Shown here in pieces: positions 36,649 through 45,457 of a stretch of DNA of 46,545 nucleotides. This DNA is from Chloroflexota bacterium (GTDB lineage: Bacteria; Chloroflexota; Dormibacteria; Dormibacterales; Dormibacteraceae). The notes below the pieces were generated by a model, which worked only from the letters and a program-made list of their open reading frames with translations, had not been told where the DNA came from and made no database searches. The translations under genes were made by a program, and so were the position numbers. The stretch covers positions 1 through 46,545 of the forward strand of contig VBGP01000030.1 of the NCBI GenBank assembly GCA_005880795.1, written 5' to 3'. Within the stretch, counting starts at the first letter, position 1, and each line of letters opens with the position of its first letter.

Positions 36649-36901
36649 AATCGAGGTCGCTCTTCCCGCAGCTGTCGCGCTGCACGCGCGTCCCGCGGCC
36701 ACCTTCGTCAAGACGGCGATGCGTTTTCGATCCCGCACGACTGTGGGCGTCGACGGCAAGGTGGCCGACGCGAAGAGCATCCTCGCCGTGCTTGCCCTCG
36801 GCGCAACCGGCGGCACCCTGCTCCGCATCAGCGCCGAGGGTGAGGACGCGCCCGCCGCCCTAGACGCGCTCGCGGCTTGCGTGACCGGCCTCATCGAGTA
36901 A
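36632..36901 (+). CDS. ptsH: HPr phosphocarrier protein
   Basis: An 89-residue HPr. The active His18 is in VALHARPAATFVKTA; the regulatory Ser position is Ser49 in ADAKSILAVLALGA. It carries phosphate from EI (ptsI, convergent) to DhaM. It starts at GTG 36632 inside the dhaM end. Its last 42 bp overlap the 3' end of ptsI on the other strand. No sugar-specific PTS permease lies near, so it may serve the dihydroxyacetone kinase alone. Confidence 0.93.
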   Translation: MQVNSEIEVALPAAVALHARPAATFVKTAMRFRSRTTVGVDGKVADAKSILAVLALGATGGTLLRISAEGEDAPAALDALAACVTGLIE

Positions 36902-38488
36902 CTTCTGCGACTGTCGGCGAGAGGTCGCATAACGCATTTCGCGGACCCACTGCCGAACCACGCCCACGCGCGCTGCGGCGACGCTGAGCTCGTCCACCCC
37001 AAGGCCGACCAGGACAGACATCGCGCCTGGCTCGGACGCAGCCTCGCCGCAGACATCGACCGGGATGTGCGCCGCATGTGCGGCCCGCGAGGTCGCCGCG
37101 ATCAGCCGGAGCACGCGGACGTCGAGCACGGGCGCGGTCTTTGATTGCTCGCGATCCAGTCCAAGCACCAGCTGGGTCAGGTCGTTGGTGCCGATGCTCA
37201 AAAACTCAGCGACCGCCGATATCGCCTGCGCGGAGGCGGCGGCTTCGGGTGTTTCGATCATCGCGCCGAGCTGCGCGCGGCGCCCGCCGAGCACCTCGTT
37301 GAGCAGGCCGCGCGCCGCCTGCATCTGCTCAGCCGACGTCACCATGGGGACGAGGATGCGTAGGTCGGTCTCTCGACCCGCCTCGACGATCGCGGCAAGC
37401 TGCGTTTGCAGCGCCTGCGGTGCGTCCAGGAGCAGGTCGATGCCGCGCGCGGAGGCGCCGCGCAGGAAGGGCGGCGTTTTGTCGCCGCCGAAATCGAAAA
37501 GACGGACCGTCGCGGTCGTGCCGCGCAGGCGGCTCAGCACCGGCCGAAGAACCCTGACCTGCTCTTCGAATGTGGGCCAGGCCGGCGCCTCCAGGAACAG
37601 CAGCTCGCTGCGCAAGAGTCCGACCCCTTCGGCGCCTTGCTCCATCGCCTCCCGTAGCTCCGCCGCGGTCGAGGCGTTGGCGAGAACTCGGACGCGATGC
37701 CCATCCTTGGTCTGCGCAGGCTCCAGTCGCCGGGCCACGGCAGCCTCTCGGGCCAGGCGCCGGCGCTCGGCCTCCGCGCGGGCGACTGAGATCCGCCCGA
37801 CGTCCGGTCCCCGGACGACGATGCCGCGGTCGCCGTCGACGAGGACCTCCTCCCCATCGCCGATCGCGAGCAGCTCGGCGCCCAGTCCCACGACCATCGG
37901 CAGCCCCAGCGACCTCGCGACGATGGCCGCGTGCGCGGTGACTCCTCCGCCCGCGAGTGCAATTCCCTTCGCCTTTGGTGCGAGCTCGGCCACGTCGGCC
38001 GGGCCCAATGTGCGTGCCACAATCACGCCTTCGATTACGGTGCGGGCTGCACCGGCGACGCAAGCTGCAGCCCGGCGGCCCACGCTCCGCACATCGTCGG
38101 CGCGCAGAGCGAGCGCCGGATCCGGAAGCCGCGCGAGCTCGGCTGCGGTCTGGTCCGCGGCTTCACGAAGGGCGACTTCGGCGCTGACTCCGAGGTCCAC
38201 GATGAGCGCCTCGACGCGCGCGCTCAACTCCGGGTCGAGAGCCATGAGCACGCCGGTCTCGACGATTTCAGCCTCAGCGTCACGGCCCGCCTCGCGGAGA
38301 TCTTCGGCAATTCGCTCCAACTCAGAGGCAGTCAACTGGAGCGCATCCGCGGCGCCCTGCGCCTCGACGGCGCGTTGTGCGACCGAGAGCGTCGCGGCAT
38401 CGGCGTTGCGAGCGCCGTCGAGCACGACCGCGTAGCCCATCGTGATTCCGGGGGCGGCGCTGACGCCGTGGAGGACGACCTCGCCCAT
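36860..38488 (-). CDS. ptsI: PTS enzyme I (PEP-protein phosphotransferase)
   Basis: A 542-residue EI, slightly shorter than the 575 of E. coli. The active His186 is in GGGVTAHAAIVARSLGLP; the PEP-binding barrel shows GVGLLRSELLFL, TVRLFDFGGDKTPPFL, LGAMIETPEAA, LSIGTNDLTQLVLGLDR and VDVCGEAAS. It starts phosphate flow from PEP to HPr and DhaM. The ATG overlaps the dhaL stop (TGATG), so it is coupled to the kinase subunits rather than to ptsH. Confidence 0.95.
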   Translation of the reverse strand: MGEVVLHGVSAAPGITMGYAVVLDGARNADAATLSVAQRAVEAQGAADALQLTASELERIAEDLREAGRDAEAEIVETGVLMALDPELSARVEALIVDLGVSAEVALREAADQTAAELARLPDPALALRADDVRSVGRRAAACVAGAARTVIEGVIVARTLGPADVAELAPKAKGIALAGGGVTAHAAIVARSLGLPMVVGLGAELLAIGDGEEVLVDGDRGIVVRGPDVGRISVARAEAERRRLAREAAVARRLEPAQTKDGHRVRVLANASTAAELREAMEQGAEGVGLLRSELLFLEAPAWPTFEEQVRVLRPVLSRLRGTTATVRLFDFGGDKTPPFLRGASARGIDLLLDAPQALQTQLAAIVEAGRETDLRILVPMVTSAEQMQAARGLLNEVLGGRRAQLGAMIETPEAAASAQAISAVAEFLSIGTNDLTQLVLGLDREQSKTAPVLDVRVLRLIAATSRAAHAAHIPVDVCGEAASEPGAMSVLVGLGVDELSVAAARVGVVRQWVREMRYATSRRQSQKLLDEAGHASRERV

Positions 38489-39135
38489 CAGCGGTTCTGG
38501 TAGACGACGGCCTTCTGCAGAGCGCGAATGACAAGGGCGGTCGATGTCGCACCTGGGTCCTGATGGCCGACCGACCGCTCGCCCAGATACGACGCGCGAC
38601 CCTTGCGCGCCTGGATCGGGATCGTCGAGCGCATACCTGCTTCCGCCGCGGCAGCCGCGCCCTCGAGCGCGTCCTCGACGGTCGCCCCGTCGGTGAGCCG
38701 CGCGCGCAGCTTTTCGACCGCCGGCTCGAGCGCGTCGACCATCGTCTTGTCGCCGACCGCGGCCGTGCCCAGGTCCTTCACCGAGGCCAGCGCAGCGGCG
38801 AGGACCTCGACGAGCTGCGCGCCGTCAAAGCTGCCCTGGTCACCAAGCACCCGGCCGCCGCTGCGCAGCGCGGAGCCCCAGAGCGGTCCGCTCGCCCCGC
38901 CGACCGTGGACACGAGGGTACGGCCGGCGAGGATGAGCAGCTTTCCGGGCGGCGATTCTGGATCCGCGTCGAGCGCCTGCCCGAGAGCCAAGACCACGGC
39001 CTCGAATCCCCTGGTCATGTTGGTGCCGTGGTCTCCGTCACCGATCGCCGCGTCGAGCTGGACCAGGTGATCCCGCTCGGCGCGTACCGATGCATTGATC
39101 TCGCGCATCCATGAGGCGATGGTGGCCGCGTTCAT
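38488..39135 (-). CDS. dhaL: Dihydroxyacetone kinase ADP-binding subunit DhaL
   Basis: A 215-residue all-helical nucleotide subunit. DAAIGDGDHGTNMTRGF carries the Asp residues that hold Mg-ADP; GGASGPLWGSALR and VGDKTMVDALEPA follow; ASYLGERSVGHQDPGATS is the C-terminal signature. ADP stays bound and is rephosphorylated by DhaM. I chose ATG 39135 (GAAAGGG upstream). It lies 26 nt after dhaK and is coupled to ptsI. Confidence 0.95.
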   Translation of the reverse strand: MNAATIASWMREINASVRAERDHLVQLDAAIGDGDHGTNMTRGFEAVVLALGQALDADPESPPGKLLILAGRTLVSTVGGASGPLWGSALRSGGRVLGDQGSFDGAQLVEVLAAALASVKDLGTAAVGDKTMVDALEPAVEKLRARLTDGATVEDALEGAAAAAEAGMRSTIPIQARKGRASYLGERSVGHQDPGATSTALVIRALQKAVVYQNR

Positions 39136-39161
39136 GACCCTTTCGCTGATCAAGTTAATCG

Positions 39162-40184
39162 CTAGACGCCCCAGCGCAGGGCGGCCGTGTGCACCGGCGC
39201 GTCCCAGTACTTCGTCAGCTCTTCGTCGAGCTCGAGGACGGTCAGCGAGGCGCCCGCCATCTCGAGTGAGGTGATGTAGCTGCCGACGAGGTTCCGGACC
39301 GGTTCCAGACCGGCCGCGCGCAGCTTCTTGTCAACCTCGCCATAAAGGAGGTAGAGCTCGAGCAATGGAGTGCCGCCCATGCCGTTCACGAAGGCGAGCA
39401 CCTTCGAGCCTCTTTTTGCTTTGAGATCTGACACGACGGCCTCGACGATCACGTCGACGACCTCTGTCGCCGAGCCCAACGGAGCGCGCCTACGTCCTGG
39501 CTCGCCGTGAATGCCGATGCCGAGCTCGACCTGGCCCTCGGGAAGGTCGAAGATCGCCTTGCCCGAAGCGGGTGGCACGCACGAGGAGAGCGCCACGCCA
39601 AACGAGCGCGACCGGTCGTTCACACGCTTCACGATGTCAGTCACCTTCGCCAGGTCGGCGCCGCTTTCCGCCGCGGCTCCGGCGATCTTTTCCGCGAGCA
39701 CGGTTGCACCCACTCCGCGCCGGCCCGCCGTGTACAGCGAGTCCTGGACTGCGACGTCATCGTCGATCACCACCGATGTGACCTTGATGCCTTCGTCCGC
39801 GGCGTCTTCGGCCGCCATTTTGAAGTTGAGCACGTCGCCCGTGTAGTTCTTGACGATGTGGACCACGCCCGCGCCGCCGTCCACCGCTTTGGTGGCCGCC
39901 AGCATCTGCTCGGGTACCGGTGAGGTGAAGACCTCGCCGGGGCAAGCAGCGTCAAGCATGCCGAGCCCGACGAACCCGCCATGTAGGGGCTCATGGCCCG
40001 AGCCGCCGCCCGAGATGAGCGCCACCTTTCCCTTCTTCGGCGCGTCCTTGCGCACGATGATCTGCTTTACGGCGTCGTAGCGGAGGAGGTCTCCGTGGGC
40101 GGCGGCCAGGCCGACCAACGATTCCTTGACCACGTGGGCGGGATCGTTGAGGAATTTACGCATCTGGTTGGTTTCGACTGCCAT
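39162..40184 (-). CDS. dhaK: Dihydroxyacetone kinase substrate-binding subunit DhaK
   Basis: A 340-residue subunit that binds dihydroxyacetone covalently through a His hemiaminal. The residue is His226 in GIGIHGEPG; GGGSGHEPLHGGFVG, KNYTGDVLNF and ALSSCVPP complete the pattern. The product is dihydroxyacetone phosphate for glycolysis. The start ATG 40184 has AAGGAGCG upstream and stands 10 nt after the glpF stop. With DhaL and DhaM it makes the PEP-dependent, not ATP-dependent, kinase. Confidence 0.96.
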   Translation of the reverse strand: MAVETNQMRKFLNDPAHVVKESLVGLAAAHGDLLRYDAVKQIIVRKDAPKKGKVALISGGGSGHEPLHGGFVGLGMLDAACPGEVFTSPVPEQMLAATKAVDGGAGVVHIVKNYTGDVLNFKMAAEDAADEGIKVTSVVIDDDVAVQDSLYTAGRRGVGATVLAEKIAGAAAESGADLAKVTDIVKRVNDRSRSFGVALSSCVPPASGKAIFDLPEGQVELGIGIHGEPGRRRAPLGSATEVVDVIVEAVVSDLKAKRGSKVLAFVNGMGGTPLLELYLLYGEVDKKLRAAGLEPVRNLVGSYITSLEMAGASLTVLELDEELTKYWDAPVHTAALRWGV

Positions 40185-40194
40185 CTTTCGCTCC

Positions 40195-40983
40195 TTAGTG
40201 GGCGGCGGCGACGTGCGCCGGCGCCTCTTCGTGGGTAACCGCTTCCTCGATCGGCTGCTCGACGTGGCGCGGGTTGGCCAGGTAGTCGTAAACGAACGAC
40301 GCCAGGGCGGCGCCGACGAGTCCCGGAATCAGGTAGACGGGGATGTACTGCGCCCAGTAAGTCGTGCCGCCAGCGATCGCCTGCACCAGCTCGGGACCGA
40401 AGGCGCGGGCCGGGTTTAGGGATGCGCCGGTGACAGGGCCGAAGATGAGGATGATCCCGACGACAGCACCACCGATGACAAGTCCGGCCAGCTGCTGCGG
40501 GGATCGGCCGTCGACGATGCCGAGAATCGCGAACAGCAGCAGGCCGGTGCCGATCGCTTCGGCGAGCGCCGCCTGCAGGTAGTAGGAGGTGGGCGCATCG
40601 GAGGCGAAGTGGGTCTGGCCCATGCCGAATGTGACCGCGTTCGCGCCGAACACACCCCAGATGGCAAACGCGCCGATCACCGCGCCGGCGAATTGAGAGA
40701 CCCAGTAGACGGGAACCTCTCGCCAGGGAAACCGCCTGGTGATCGCCAGGGCAAACGTCACCGCCGGGTTGATGTGGCAGCCCGAAACCTTGCCGATCGC
40801 ATAGACCAGGGCCGTGATGATGAAGCCGAAAGCGAAGCTGATCCCCAGCAGGTCAGCCTCGGTCACGGCCGGCACCGCCTTGCCCGCCAACGCCAACGTC
40901 GCGATCACGGAGCCGGGCCCGACGAGGACCAGTGCTGCCGTGCCGAAGACTTCCGCCAACGCCCGCTGTCGAATCGAGAACAT
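40195..40983 (-). CDS. glpF: MIP-family channel (glycerol/dihydroxyacetone facilitator or aquaporin)
   Basis: A 262-residue, six-segment major intrinsic protein with both NPA boxes: CHINPAVTFAL and SLNPARAFGPEL. Operon position with dhaK and dhaL argues for glycerol or dihydroxyacetone uptake. The residue after the second NPAR, Asp in E. coli GlpF, is Ala here, as in many water channels, so the substrate is not certain from sequence. It starts at ATG 40983 with AGGGGG upstream, first gene of glpF-dhaK-dhaL-ptsI. The C-terminus is His/Glu-rich. Confidence 0.85.
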   Translation of the reverse strand: MFSIRQRALAEVFGTAALVLVGPGSVIATLALAGKAVPAVTEADLLGISFAFGFIITALVYAIGKVSGCHINPAVTFALAITRRFPWREVPVYWVSQFAGAVIGAFAIWGVFGANAVTFGMGQTHFASDAPTSYYLQAALAEAIGTGLLLFAILGIVDGRSPQQLAGLVIGGAVVGIILIFGPVTGASLNPARAFGPELVQAIAGGTTYWAQYIPVYLIPGLVGAALASFVYDYLANPRHVEQPIEEAVTHEEAPAHVAAAH

Positions 40984-41072: not shown

Positions 41073-41218
41073 CAGGCAATTAAGCAGCGGCCCGGAGATT
41101 CGGTTGGCCCGCACGTGGTTCGCGTCCCGGCTGTCCCCGCCGCACTAACACCTGCCTCACCGATTGGTGGCCAAAGCCATACATCGCCGCCCGCCATGGA
41201 TTAGGCTTCGCTCCCACA

Positions 41219-41275
41219 GTGCGTAATCGGATTGCGATCGGGATCGAGATTAGCCGGGGAGGTCCCCCGACTTAG
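41219..41275 (+). CDS. Isoleucine-rich leader peptide of cimA
   Basis: An 18-codon frame starting at GTG: MRNRIAIGIEISRGGPPT, stop TAG 41273-41275. Four of its codons are Ile (ATT 41231, ATC 41237, ATC 41243, ATT 41249), at every second position. It has no Shine-Dalgarno site; a TAGGCT box ends 11 nt upstream, so the mRNA may be almost leaderless. Ribosome stalling on these Ile codons would free 41254-41265 for antiterminator pairing, while a ribosome at the stop would cover it. Citramalate synthase feeds isoleucine synthesis, which makes the codon choice meaningful. Confidence 0.75.
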   Translation: MRNRIAIGIEISRGGPPT

Positions 41276-41331
41276 CGCGCGTCGCTGATTCGGTGGACCT
41301 CCCGGCCTAGAGAAGGTCGGGAGGTTTTTTT
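41254..41331 (+). promoter_or_regulatory. Transcription attenuator of cimA
   Basis: Segment 1, CCGGGGAGGTCC (41254-41265), complements segment 2, GGACCTCCCGG (41295-41305), with one bulged G: the antiterminator. Segment 2 also pairs with segment 3 as a 12-bp stem ACCTCCCGGCCT (41297-41308) / AGGTCGGGAGGT (41314-41325) with an AGAGA loop and seven T (41325-41331): a strong intrinsic terminator that touches the cimA ATG. The GGGAGG inside segment 3 (41319-41324) is also the cimA ribosome site, so the same hairpin would hide it. Confidence 0.8.
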
Positions 41332-42915
41332 ATGTCCGCCAGAAGGATCGTGGTGTACGACACCACCCTGCGCGACGGGGCGCAGGGTCCTGCTGTCTCG
41401 TTTTCCGCCGCCGACAAGGAACGGATCGCGCGGCTCCTCGACGGGCTTGCCTTCGACTATGTCGAGGGCGGGTTTCCTGGCTCAAACCCCAAGGACGAGG
41501 AGCTGTTCGCGCGCCTCGCGGCGGAACCTCTCGCGCACGCGCGGCTGGCGGCGTTCGGCGCAACCCGGCGCGCGGGCGGGACCTGCGAGGAGGACGCCAA
41601 CCTCAAAGCGCTCGCCGAGAGCAATGCTCCGGTATGGACACTCGTGGGCAAAAGCGATGCCTGGCAGGTCGCGACCGTGCTGCAGACGACGAACAACGAA
41701 AACCTGGCGATGGTCGAGGAGTCGGTCGCCTACGCGGTGGGCCTTGGTCGCGAGGTGATCTTCGACGCCGAGCACTTCTTCGACGGCTTCGTACGTGACG
41801 CCGAGTACGCGACCGAGGTCTGCCTCTCGGCCGCGCGGGCCGGCGCGACCTGGGTCGTCCTCTGCGACACCAATGGCGGCAGCATGCCGTCCGCTGTCAG
41901 GCGTGGCGTTGAAGCGGTCCGCGACGCGCTGCGCCAGATGGGCAGCCCGGCTCGAGTCGGAATCCATACCCACAACGACTGCGAGCTCGCGGTCGCCAAC
42001 ACGCTCGAGGGCGTGATGGCGGGCGCCGACATGGTGCAGGGCACCATCAATGGATATGGCGAGCGCTGCGGTAACGCGAACCTCGTCTCGGTGGTTTCCA
42101 ACCTTGCTCTCAAGCTCGGAGTCGACTCACTTCCAGATGCCTCGCTGGCCCAGTTCACCGAGCTGTCGCGCACCGTCGCCGAGATCGCCAACCTCGCGCT
42201 CCCCCTGCAGCAGCCTTTTGTCGGATACGGCGCTTTCGCGCACAAGGGTGGCCAGCATGTCGCCGCGGTCCTTCGGCACAAGGACGCCTACCAGCACATC
42301 GATCCCGGCGTGGTGGGAAACGAGGCCCGCGTCCTGGTCTCCGAGCTTTCTGGCCGAGGCAACGTGCTGGCCAAAGCCCGCGAGTTCGGTCTCGAGCTCG
42401 ACCGCGACGACCCGCAGACGCGTCAGCTCGTGAATCACCTGAAGGAGCTCGAGCACCAGGGGTACTCCTACGAGGCGGCCGATGCATCCTTCGAGATGCT
42501 GGTGCGACGCCTGCAGCCCGGCTATTCCGCGCCGTGGTCTGTGGCGGACTTCACGACACAGGTGCGCAAGAATGGCGGGTCAGTCCACGCCGAGGCCACG
42601 GTGAAAGTCGATGTCGGCGGCACCTTGTATCACACGGCGGCGTCGGGCAACGGTCCCGTCAACGCCCTCGACGCCGCGCTGCGCAAGGCGCTCAGTCCAC
42701 GCTTCCCGGCGCTCGATGACGTGAGCCTCCACGATTACAAGGTGCGGATCCTGAACGGCGACGCCGGAACCGCGGCCACGACACGGGTGCTCGTCGAATC
42801 GGGCATCGGGACAAGGCGATGGACCACCGTCGGATGCTCGAGCAACATCATCGAGGCGTCTCTGCTCGCACTGGTCGACTCTCTCGAATATGTCGTCTCC
42901 AGACCCATTGAGTAA
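41332..42915 (+). CDS. cimA: (R)-citramalate synthase
   Basis: Condenses pyruvate with acetyl-CoA to (R)-citramalate, the entry to 2-oxobutyrate and isoleucine without threonine. The 527-residue protein has the HMGL-like TIM barrel (VVYDTTLRDGAQGP, VEGGFPGSNPKDEE, LCDTNGG, GIHTHNDCELAVANT, GTINGYGERCGNANL) and the C-terminal LeuA allosteric domain (about 390-515, with TTVGCSSNIIEAS). The fit is to CimA of the long type rather than to isopropylmalate or homocitrate synthase. Expression is predicted to be attenuated by isoleucine supply. Its end overlaps ppc by 26 nt. Confidence 0.94.
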   Translation: MSARRIVVYDTTLRDGAQGPAVSFSAADKERIARLLDGLAFDYVEGGFPGSNPKDEELFARLAAEPLAHARLAAFGATRRAGGTCEEDANLKALAESNAPVWTLVGKSDAWQVATVLQTTNNENLAMVEESVAYAVGLGREVIFDAEHFFDGFVRDAEYATEVCLSAARAGATWVVLCDTNGGSMPSAVRRGVEAVRDALRQMGSPARVGIHTHNDCELAVANTLEGVMAGADMVQGTINGYGERCGNANLVSVVSNLALKLGVDSLPDASLAQFTELSRTVAEIANLALPLQQPFVGYGAFAHKGGQHVAAVLRHKDAYQHIDPGVVGNEARVLVSELSGRGNVLAKAREFGLELDRDDPQTRQLVNHLKELEHQGYSYEAADASFEMLVRRLQPGYSAPWSVADFTTQVRKNGGSVHAEATVKVDVGGTLYHTAASGNGPVNALDAALRKALSPRFPALDDVSLHDYKVRILNGDAGTAATTRVLVESGIGTRRWTTVGCSSNIIEASLLALVDSLEYVVSRPIE

Positions 42916-45457
42916 GACCCGGGAGACCGCTCGCCAGGAGATCCCCGATCCGCTGCGGCGGGACGTGCGCCTCCTCGGTGACCTGCTCGGCAGGGTGATC
43001 GCCGACTACGGCGGAGCGAAGCTGCTGCGTGACGTCGAGCGGTTGCGCGGCCTGGTGATCCGCGCTCGGGAGGACCGGCGCTTCGAACGCCAGGCGGAGA
43101 AGGTGGTCGCCTCGTGGCCGCTCGATCGCGCTGAGATGGTGGCCCGCGCCTTCACCTGCTACTTCCATCTGGCAAATCTTGCCGAGGAGCATCACCGGGC
43201 ACGCGTTCTGCGCGAGCGCGACTCGGGTCCTCAGCCTCTTCCAGAGACGCTGGCGGCAACGGTGACCGAACTCCGTGCAAAGATCGGGCGCAAGCGCCTC
43301 GATGCGCTCATCGCGACGCTCGAGATCCATCCCGTCTTCACCGCTCATCCCACCGAGGCCCGCCGTCGCGCGATCGTGACCGCGATCCGACGCGTGGGCG
43401 AGCAGCTGGAACGCCTCGATGATCCCCGCATCTCCGACAGCGAGCGGCACGAGGCTGACCGACGGCTGGTCGAAGAGGTCGATTCATTGTGGAGGACCGC
43501 ACAGGTGCGCTCGGCGCACGTCCAACCACTCGACGAGGTGCGCTCGTTCATGGCCGTTTTCGACGAAACGCTTTTTCGTGTCGCTCCGGAGCTCGTGCGC
43601 TCGCTCGACACCGCCCTGGGCACGCCGGCTCCGCCTTTTCTCCGTTTCGGGACCTGGATCGGCGGCGATCGCGACGGCAATCCCGCAATCAACGCTGAGG
43701 TGACCGCCGAGACGATGGCCATCCAGGCCGAGCATGCGCTCCTCGCGCTGGAGGCGGTGGCCAACCGCGTGGGCCGCGCGCTGACGGTCGACGCGGTGAC
43801 GACTCCGCCATCCCAAGCCCTCCGACGCCGATTGGGGGCGCACTCGACCGAGCCGCACCGAGAGTTCCTGCTGCAGGTGGCGCGCCGGATTCGCGCGACG
43901 CGATTGGGTGAGCATCCGGCGGCATATCGGTCTCCTACCGACCTGCTCGGCGACCTGCACGTGCTGCGCGATTCGCTTGCGGCAGCGGGGGCGAACCGAC
44001 TCGCGTCCGGCGAGCTGCAGCACCTGCTGTGGCAAACCCAGACATTCGGATTTCACCTCGCCGAGCTCGAGGTCCGGCAGCACAGCACGGTGCACGAGCG
44101 CGCGCTCGCCGAGGTGCGCAGCGGAAATGCAAGGTCGGACCTCACACGAGACCTGCTCGACACGCTCGGTGTGATGGCGACGCTTCAGGCTCGATTCGGT
44201 TTGGATTCCTGCCGCCGTTACGTGGTCAGCTTCACGCGGAACGCGGAGGATGTGGCCGCGGTCCATGAACTGGCCCAGCACGCAACCGGCGGAATCGCAC
44301 CCGTCATCGACGTGGTCCCTCTGTTCGAAACTCTCGAGGACCTGTCACGCGCGTCAAACGTGATGGACGGCGTGCTCGACCTCGAGCCGGTGCGCAAGCG
44401 GCTCGCAGGCAACCAGCGGCGCATCGAAGTGATGCTCGGATACTCCGACTCGGCGAAGGAGGTGGGGCCGCTTTCGGCCACTATCGCCCTCCACGACGCG
44501 CAGGCGGCGCTCGCCGCGTGGGCGAAGCGCAACCGCCTTCACCTGACGTTGTTTCACGGTCGTGGCGGTGCGCTCGGCCGGGGCGGCGGCCCGGCCAACA
44601 GGGCGGTCCGCGCACAGGCGCCCGGCTCTGTGAACGGCCACTTCAAGGTGACCGAGCAGGGCGAGGTGATCTTCGCGCGGTACGGAAACCGCGCCATCGC
44701 CCGCCGCCACCTCGAGCAGGTGACGTCCGCGGTGCTCGAGGCGTCCGTGCCGCGGTCGCCGCGAAGCGACCCGGCGAACGCATTTCGGGAGCTTGCCGCG
44801 AAGGTTGATGCACCATCACGCGCCGCGTATCGCAAGCTGGTCGAGGCCCCAGGGTTCGAGGACTGGTTTCTGAAGGTCAGCCCGATCGAGGAGCTGGGCC
44901 GGCTGCGGATCGCGTCGCGGCCTTCGCGCCGAGCCGGCGGCCGGCGCGAGGGCCTGGAAGACCTGCGCGCCATCCCCTGGGTCTTCGCATGGTCGCAGAT
45001 GAGGCTCAACCTGCCGGGGTGGTACGGCATCGGAAGCGGCTTGTCCGCGGCTCCGTTACAAGATCTGCGCCGCGCCTATGCGGAATGGCCGCTGTTCAAC
45101 GCGACGCTCGACAACGCGGAGATGAGCCTCGCGAAGACCGACCGGCCGATCGCGGAGCGATACCTGGCGTTGGGCGGCCGAGAGGACCTTGCGTCGATCG
45201 TGCTGGCCGAGTACGACCTGACGAAACGAAAGGTGCTTGAGGTGACCGGCCATCGCCGGCTGCTCGAAGACCGCCGCGTGCTGTCGTGGGCAATCGAGCT
45301 GCGCAACCCTTACGTCGATGCCCTCTCGCATCTCCAGCTTCGGGCGCTGCGCGCGCTGCGGCATCCAAAGACAGGTCGGCGAGATCGGGCGCATGCCGAG
45401 CGGGTGTTTCAGCTCACGGTGAACGGTGTGGCGGCAGGCCTTCAGAACACGGGGTAG
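42890..45457 (+). CDS. ppc: Phosphoenolpyruvate carboxylase
   Basis: Carboxylates PEP to oxaloacetate, replenishing the TCA cycle and aspartate-family precursors. The 855-residue protein (E. coli 883) carries the catalytic His in VFTAHPTEARRR, the GGDRDGNP loop, MLGYSDSAKEVG, the mobile HGRGGALGRGGGP loop and the conserved C-terminal LQNTG. The ATG lies inside the end of cimA, so the two are cotranscribed and probably coupled, and ppc would also fall under the isoleucine-sensitive attenuator. PEP is shared with the neighbouring PTS-type kinase. Confidence 0.95.
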   Translation: MSSPDPLSKTRETARQEIPDPLRRDVRLLGDLLGRVIADYGGAKLLRDVERLRGLVIRAREDRRFERQAEKVVASWPLDRAEMVARAFTCYFHLANLAEEHHRARVLRERDSGPQPLPETLAATVTELRAKIGRKRLDALIATLEIHPVFTAHPTEARRRAIVTAIRRVGEQLERLDDPRISDSERHEADRRLVEEVDSLWRTAQVRSAHVQPLDEVRSFMAVFDETLFRVAPELVRSLDTALGTPAPPFLRFGTWIGGDRDGNPAINAEVTAETMAIQAEHALLALEAVANRVGRALTVDAVTTPPSQALRRRLGAHSTEPHREFLLQVARRIRATRLGEHPAAYRSPTDLLGDLHVLRDSLAAAGANRLASGELQHLLWQTQTFGFHLAELEVRQHSTVHERALAEVRSGNARSDLTRDLLDTLGVMATLQARFGLDSCRRYVVSFTRNAEDVAAVHELAQHATGGIAPVIDVVPLFETLEDLSRASNVMDGVLDLEPVRKRLAGNQRRIEVMLGYSDSAKEVGPLSATIALHDAQAALAAWAKRNRLHLTLFHGRGGALGRGGGPANRAVRAQAPGSVNGHFKVTEQGEVIFARYGNRAIARRHLEQVTSAVLEASVPRSPRSDPANAFRELAAKVDAPSRAAYRKLVEAPGFEDWFLKVSPIEELGRLRIASRPSRRAGGRREGLEDLRAIPWVFAWSQMRLNLPGWYGIGSGLSAAPLQDLRRAYAEWPLFNATLDNAEMSLAKTDRPIAERYLALGGREDLASIVLAEYDLTKRKVLEVTGHRRLLEDRRVLSWAIELRNPYVDALSHLQLRALRALRHPKTGRRDRAHAERVFQLTVNGVAAGLQNTG

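Follow-up and report, generated by a model that had tools for sequence, protein, structure and literature searches.

A candidate isoleucine attenuator in front of the citramalate synthase gene of uncultured soil Chloroflexota, with apparently re-coded relatives in a sister family

The enterobacterial ilv, leu and thr leaders depend on ribosomes stalling at codons for the end product, with Thr and Ile codons mixed in the thr leaders, and T-box leaders sense tRNA charging through a choice between antiterminator and terminator. In the leaderless, cysteine-rich leader ORFs of mycobacteria, the peptide is probably translated from the RNA 5' end, as it would be in the leader described here. Candidate cys leaders are presented in PMC1262725. 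The Mycobacterium tuberculosis ilvB1 attenuator, as far as the accessible text of PMC13236596 describes it, combines a short frame rich in codons for branched-chain amino acids (BCAA) with two exclusive hairpins ahead of a BCAA gene; a ribosome at the stop codon masks the antiterminator, and there is no pause hairpin. The leader that we describe appears to resemble it on each of these points. Actinobacterial ilvB leaders (Corynebacterium, Mycobacterium and Streptomyces) and trp leaders likewise carry codons for the end product, and a complementary triple common to both of their hairpins is conserved over long distances (PMC1262725, PMC11857589).

The locus studied here lies in a window of 46,545 nucleotides, i.e., the whole stretch of DNA that was analysed, from a Chloroflexota metagenome assembly of 3.2 Mb (G000). 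Upstream of the citramalate synthase gene cimA, the window contains an Ile-rich short frame followed by an antiterminator and a terminator that are mutually exclusive and have one strand in common, as is typical of attenuators. Judging from the sequence, we consider it highly probable (roughly 0.88) that this element governs cimA-ppc by ribosome-mediated transcription attenuation in response to charged tRNA-Ile. Its parts and the two genes are as follows.

41163 to 41178 (approximate to 1 nt), + strand: TTGG-N9-CCA dyad upstream of the promoter, a putative activator or regulator site, conserved in position
41202 to 41207, + strand: -10-like box TAGGCT, of the TANNNT form found in all leaders
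41219 to 41275, + strand: leader peptide gene with GTG start and TAG stop (41273-41275), reading VRNRIAIGIEISRGGPPT
41254 to 41265, + strand: segment 1, the antiterminator 5' arm, whose GGAGGT core encodes the leader Gly-Gly (pairing, folding, covariation)
41267 to 41293, + strand: inner antiterminator hairpin with the leader stop codon (folding; compensatory changes at pair 41269-41291)
41295 to 41305, + strand: segment 2, the antiterminator 3' arm and also the terminator 5' arm (pairing, covariation)
41297 to 41325, + strand: terminator hairpin (41297-41308 with 41314-41325), -24.1 kcal/mol
41319 to 41331, + strand: GGGAGGT, the cimA Shine-Dalgarno sequence in segment 3, plus T7, abutting the ATG at 41332 (sequence)
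41332 to 42915, + strand: cimA, citramalate synthase (TIGR00977, 635 bits against a cut-off of 450; PF08502 LeuA allosteric domain)
42890 to 45457, + strand: ppc, phosphoenolpyruvate carboxylase (NF000584, 758 bits, under its 815 cut-off)

The TIGR00977 score bears out the original prediction that the downstream gene encodes citramalate synthase, and the closest named records for the protein, 78% and 64% identical to it, come from assemblies of soil Chloroflexi. The start of ppc overlaps the end of cimA, and the two genes are probably co-transcribed; a ppc homologue adjoins cimA on its 3' side in 20 of the other loci of the window's family. The gene 5' of cimA encodes an aquaporin and is divergent, on the minus strand. 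It stands in a row with DhaK, a DhaL-like ORF and a PTS enzyme I-like ORF (36860-40983, minus strand, divergent from cimA; the latter two ORFs were named by eye), perhaps a PEP-dependent glycerol/dihydroxyacetone unit. Inside cimA, at 41338-41394, the TTLRDGAQG codons make a GC-rich hairpin with a weak OmrA-B score, probably a coding constraint. Elsewhere in the assembly, a REP-like palindrome, CTCCCCATTTATGGGGAG, is dispersed over contigs C72, C83, C211, C7 and others. In a check of cimA-carrying genomes for biosynthetic ilvA, matches to TIGR01127 were under the cut-off everywhere and mixed related PLP enzymes; among the matches listed, those that were near full-length, running through the C-terminal regulatory part, came from five genomes of the window's family without cimA and from none with cimA, a pattern that is no more than suggestive of cimA-carrying genomes in this family lacking the biosynthetic enzyme.

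The Ile-rich frame that had been proposed before cimA is present, from GTG41219 to TAG41273-41275, with Ile at positions 5, 7, 9 and 11; residue 1 is M only as the initiator, since the start codon is GTG. The probability of at least 4 Ile in 17 codons is 0.003 for this frame alone, given the local Ile frequency of 3.6%, and across 23 cimA leaders the Ile share is 20% versus 3.6% locally. A leader frame rich in codons for the amino acid that its pathway makes is characteristic of attenuators. Ile is kept at -7, -5 and -3 from Gly-Gly (21/23, 22/23 and 23/23 cimA leaders, respectively), and the codons between these positions vary, specifying Ala, Gly, Ile, Arg or Glu; the family pattern reads M/V-[R/..]-..-I-x-I-E-I-x-R-G-G-P-P-T-stop, with minor variations. 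ATC and ATT alternate at the -7 codon, and the -3 codon, the last for Ile before Gly-Gly, is ATT in 23/23 leaders, with cimA itself using ATC over ATT 11:1. Both codons are normally decoded by the same tRNA-Ile, so that a preference for the rarer one at -3 would fit a sensor.

To follow the element through related genomes, we used the window's family (f1, 37 genomes) and a sister family of the same class (f2). The cimA gene is present in 25 of the 37 same-family genomes, and a covariance model of the leader matched all 25 (E <= 2e-21) and 0/12 genomes without cimA, conservation that we regard as decisive evidence that the element exceeds chance. The original prediction had made its case dependent on the Ile codons and both pairings being conserved in relatives; these are kept, as are the position of the stop codon, T7 and the abutting ATG. 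Within G000, no copy besides that at cimA was found with either the model or the pattern GGAGG-CCTCC-GGAGG, whose count was no different from that of its control.

The same covariance model recovered full-length relatives in the sister family. In 14 genomes, the module precedes the threonine synthase gene thrC (TIGR00260, 265 bits versus 167) and carries a Met/Thr/Ile-rich peptide, e.g., MSTPSSITMMMRRGGFRT and VLTPRVVLATMIMPRGGFRT. In 1 genome (L152:1001-1370), it stands before the gene for the large subunit of acetolactate synthase (TIGR00118, 628 bits), preceded by a small, IlvM-like ORF that weakly matches an ACT domain; the leader peptide, MCSTRIRGIVGPGGSRT, has Ile/Val codons. Leaders of both families share, with few exceptions, the almost fixed spacing GGAGGT-N6-ACN-TA[AG], the motifs CCTC[CT]CGG and GAGGT, and the T tract. 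In the sister family the leader codons differ according to the gene, as leader-peptide attenuation would predict, and it seems that a single RNA module was re-coded to serve several amino-acid genes. We also observed that the thrC leader peptides built on this module in L150, L151 and L153-L164 are Met-rich (..TMMMRRGGFRT). Beyond the two families, the covariance model revealed no module in 400 Chloroflexota genomes; its matches there, namely, T-boxes (trpE, ilvB), PyrR-type attenuators, an L10 leader and bare terminators, were rejected after inspection.

Both pairings proposed for the switch are present in the window, with a correction to one of them. The terminator is as predicted, 41297-41308 with 41314-41325 and a tract of seven T (T41325-41331) directly followed by ATG41332, leaving only ~7 nt between stem and ATG; an intrinsic terminator with a T tract ahead of the structural gene is what an attenuator should have. 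The antiterminator does pair 41254-41265 with 41295-41305, with one bulged G, but is longer than the prediction had it: the hairpin runs on inward through 41267-41277/41283-41293, so that the leader stop TAG lies inside a single hairpin of 18-20 bp. Folding of the nascent RNA through segment 2 gives the antiterminator, at -46.2 kcal/mol (z -2.9, 0/200 shuffles as good), and with segment 3 included the minimum-energy fold contains the terminator (z -2.7). All 38 leaders of the two families have the same two hairpins, with slight differences in stem length and a single 18-20 bp antiterminator in nearly all, and mean energies in cimA leaders are -37 kcal/mol for the antiterminator and -21.6 for the terminator. 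GAGGT with at least 6 T/C letters precedes the start codon in every member, and the T tract after the GC-rich stem is kept in all, being C-interrupted only in L152 and L153. A local segment-1 hairpin (CGGGG-AGGTC-CCCCG), paired in 93% of cells in the window's family without covariation, was considered as a 1:2 pause hairpin and rejected, as it is not conserved in the sister family, where its counterpart in thrC leaders is weak (-4 kcal/mol).

Covariance analysis of the alternative pairings shows that the antiterminator covaries across the two families. It is paired in 93.2% of cells, with 23 cells carrying double-sided changes against a shuffled mean of 8.4 (0/500 shuffles as high) and a covariation score of 0.236 against 0.169; in none of the 500 shuffles did the pairing, the score or the number of double changes come up to the observed value, and slid controls lay far lower. 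Among the compensatory changes, pairs 41264-41296 and 41265-41295 go from C-G to U-A and pair 41269-41291 from G-C to A-U. We take this as strong, not independent, evidence, given that two families evolving apart can inflate the counts. The terminator is paired in 94.4% of cells over both families (0/500 shuffles). Within the window's family alone there was no covariation signal; the pairings hardly vary there, and the comparison is uninformative because of this scarcity of variation.

In 38/38 leaders, the start codon is preceded at 7-12 nt by a TANNNT box, whose position would place the RNA start at or within ~6 nt of the start codon (5' UTR about 0-6 nt). The leader transcript is thus probably leaderless, or nearly so, and no Shine-Dalgarno sequence is evident for the leader. 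Because this -10-like box stands upstream of the leader in all cases, it argues against a cimA transcription start downstream of 41275, which the original prediction had recognized as incompatible with the switch. In 23/23 cimA leaders, the TTGG-N9-CCA dyad (TTGT in two) lies ahead of the -10 box at a distance of 38-39 nt, roughly the location expected for a class II activator site; it is absent from thrC leaders, and no -35 consensus was seen in cimA leaders. The dyad is likely a regulator site, and a putative transcription factor likely adds a layer of control on the cimA promoter.

In the mechanism that we propose, transcription would begin at or a few bases before the leader GTG, and the leader would be translated from the (nearly) leaderless RNA directly behind RNA polymerase. 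When charged tRNA-Ile is scarce, a ribosome stalled at the Ile codons would leave free the GGAGGT arm, encoded by Arg-Gly-Gly, to form the long hairpin with the ACCTCC arm that follows; with ACCTCC held from the second GGAGGT, the polymerase would read on and the cimA ribosome site would stay open. When Ile is ample, the ribosome would reach the TAG within the hairpin and cover the antiterminator 5' arm, and ACCTCC would pair with the second GGAGGT in the terminator, which, with T7, would halt transcription just before the cimA ATG. In any read-through RNA, the ribosome site would be closed within the same terminator stem. In almost all members, the Shine-Dalgarno sequence GGGAGGT is part of the 3' arm of the terminator, which makes a second, translational layer on cimA plausible.

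We modelled the geometry with equilibrium folding and a ribosome whose leading edge lies 11-13 nt past the A-site codon. Without a ribosome, the equilibrium probability of the terminator in the window is 0.92. Early stalls had been predicted to leave segment 1 free, and in the model a stall at Ile5 or Ile7 does so, raising the antiterminator to 0.63-0.89; a stall at Ile9 gives a mixture, and a ribosome at Ile11 or at the stop codon gives the terminator, i.e., a stall at Ile11, the last Ile codon, would itself block segment 1. The model also supports the idea that a ribosome at TAG 41273 covers segment 1, with a terminator probability of 1.0 in 12/12 leaders modelled; the stop codon stands at a near-fixed distance, placed for a finishing ribosome to block the antiterminator, as in attenuators. 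Early stalls favour the antiterminator at equilibrium in most of the 12 leaders, not all: in L018, L012, L151 and L164 the terminator is favoured even with an early stall, so that the switch would have to rely on co-transcriptional order. Such order should help, because the antiterminator is the first of the two to form and its energy is ~15 kcal/mol below that of the terminator. In thrC leaders, the modelled effect of a stall at the Met codons near segment 1 is to favour the terminator, opposite in sign to a stall further upstream. A more far-reaching reading, which we put forward as speculative and hold to be unlikely in its entirety, is that a leaderless attenuator RNA, with Gly-Gly codons copying the ribosome site of its target, was transferred to, or kept in, different pathways and given new codons (Ile at cimA, Ile/Val at acetolactate synthase, Met/Thr/Ile at thrC), and that the thrC Met codons might give the opposite sign, Thr/Ile shortage turning expression on and Met shortage turning it off.

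The overlap of terminator and ribosome site invites the alternative that attenuation is purely translational, in which case the stem would act by masking the ribosome site of cimA and T7 would cause little or no termination. GGGAGGT is an obvious Shine-Dalgarno sequence at the right distance from the ATG, in the 3' arm, and segment 1 copies it, so that segment 2 would in effect be an anti-Shine-Dalgarno sequence choosing between the two. However, a switch of that kind would not need the T tract that all members have kept, and we consider it improbable that translation alone is controlled. Transcription attenuation by a translating ribosome also has to be weighed against the idea that the short frame is no sensor and its Ile codons are incidental, with the hairpins under the control of a protein or small molecule (riboswitch or PyrR-type). 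Segment 1 and the stop-codon region are strongly conserved in nucleotide sequence, which would suit such control, and PyrR-type and T-box terminators do appear among the other Chloroflexota matches of the model. Nevertheless, the window has no Rfam match at gathering score, Ile codons, reading frame and stop are conserved at the codon level, the amino acids of the sister family differ along with the gene, and a structure inside a coding frame has little room for an aptamer, all of which makes a non-sensing frame very unlikely.

Terminators are often found between genes, and the hairpin could in principle end an upstream transcript, with the frame arising by chance and cimA driven by a constitutive promoter of its own. 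Yet the upstream aquaporin gene is divergent (minus strand), so that there is no evident transcript to end, the hairpin is conserved together with the frame in 25/25 genomes, and its stem nearly touches the ATG (~7 nt); we give this explanation almost no credence.

Known classes of leader RNA were sought as well. No T-box match precedes cimA in the window's family, and the Rfam leader families (Thr, Leu, His, Trp and others) gave 0 matches at gathering score in the window; weak matches in the region to NsiR1, OmrA-B and rdlD were rejected, being under their gathering scores and terminator-like. The sole T-box match in the window's genome is a T-box-like RNA (L251, G000:C63:12098-12283, minus strand; 52 bits, below gathering score) before ileS (TIGR00392), and the window's family has this single T-box before ileS and a leader-peptide switch at cimA. 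In the sister-family genomes, leuB precedes cimA with no leader between, and the cimA contigs of two of them (G039 and G059) carry a T-box several kb upstream, ahead of a row of ilv-leu genes. For other genes, T-boxes and leader peptides are known to replace one another (PMC2965389); the passage of cimA from an ilv-leu-cimA operon with an upstream T-box, as in these two genomes, to a leader switch of its own would be a clean case of sensor exchange.

Consistent with the original prediction, which knew of no described Ile attenuator for cimA, we found no cimA attenuator in the open-access literature searched, and its absence from the literature as a whole is only probable; nor did the open-access literature searched yield a leader-peptide attenuator in Chloroflexota. 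As far as that literature shows, no earlier attenuator has been described for cimA, and this element would be the first. Its hosts are a group of uncultured soil Chloroflexota, and it would show how a threonine-bypassing supply of isoleucine can come under Ile control. With the re-coded relatives at hand, the way in which the position of a codon determines the sign of attenuation can be tested directly.

Attenuation itself is known, and the novelty here lies in the controlled gene (cimA), in the lineage and in the apparent re-coding of a single RNA module (Ile, Met/Thr and Ile/Val). With the enterobacterial leaders the cimA leader would share the stalling principle, but theirs add a 1:2 pause hairpin and a leader peptide led by a Shine-Dalgarno sequence, whereas the cimA leader has a single antiterminator, lacks a pause hairpin common to the two families and has no obvious Shine-Dalgarno sequence of its own. 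For the mycobacterial cys leaders no obvious terminator has been reported, whereas the intrinsic terminator of the cimA leader is strictly conserved. The ilvB1 attenuator differs in its LVVI codons, its 166-nt leader RNA and a gene well past the terminator (PMC13236596); the cimA leader, in contrast, is probably leaderless, and its terminator abuts the ATG and contains the ribosome site. The actinobacterial ilvB and trp leaders differ in sequence, gene and phylum, with no cimA case in the accessible portions of PMC1262725 and PMC11857589. Their complementary triple nevertheless has an equivalent in GGAGGT-ACCTCC-GGAGGT, and the cimA leader would work much like M. tuberculosis ilvB1 (PMC13236596) and the actinobacterial trp/ilv leaders (PMC1262725).
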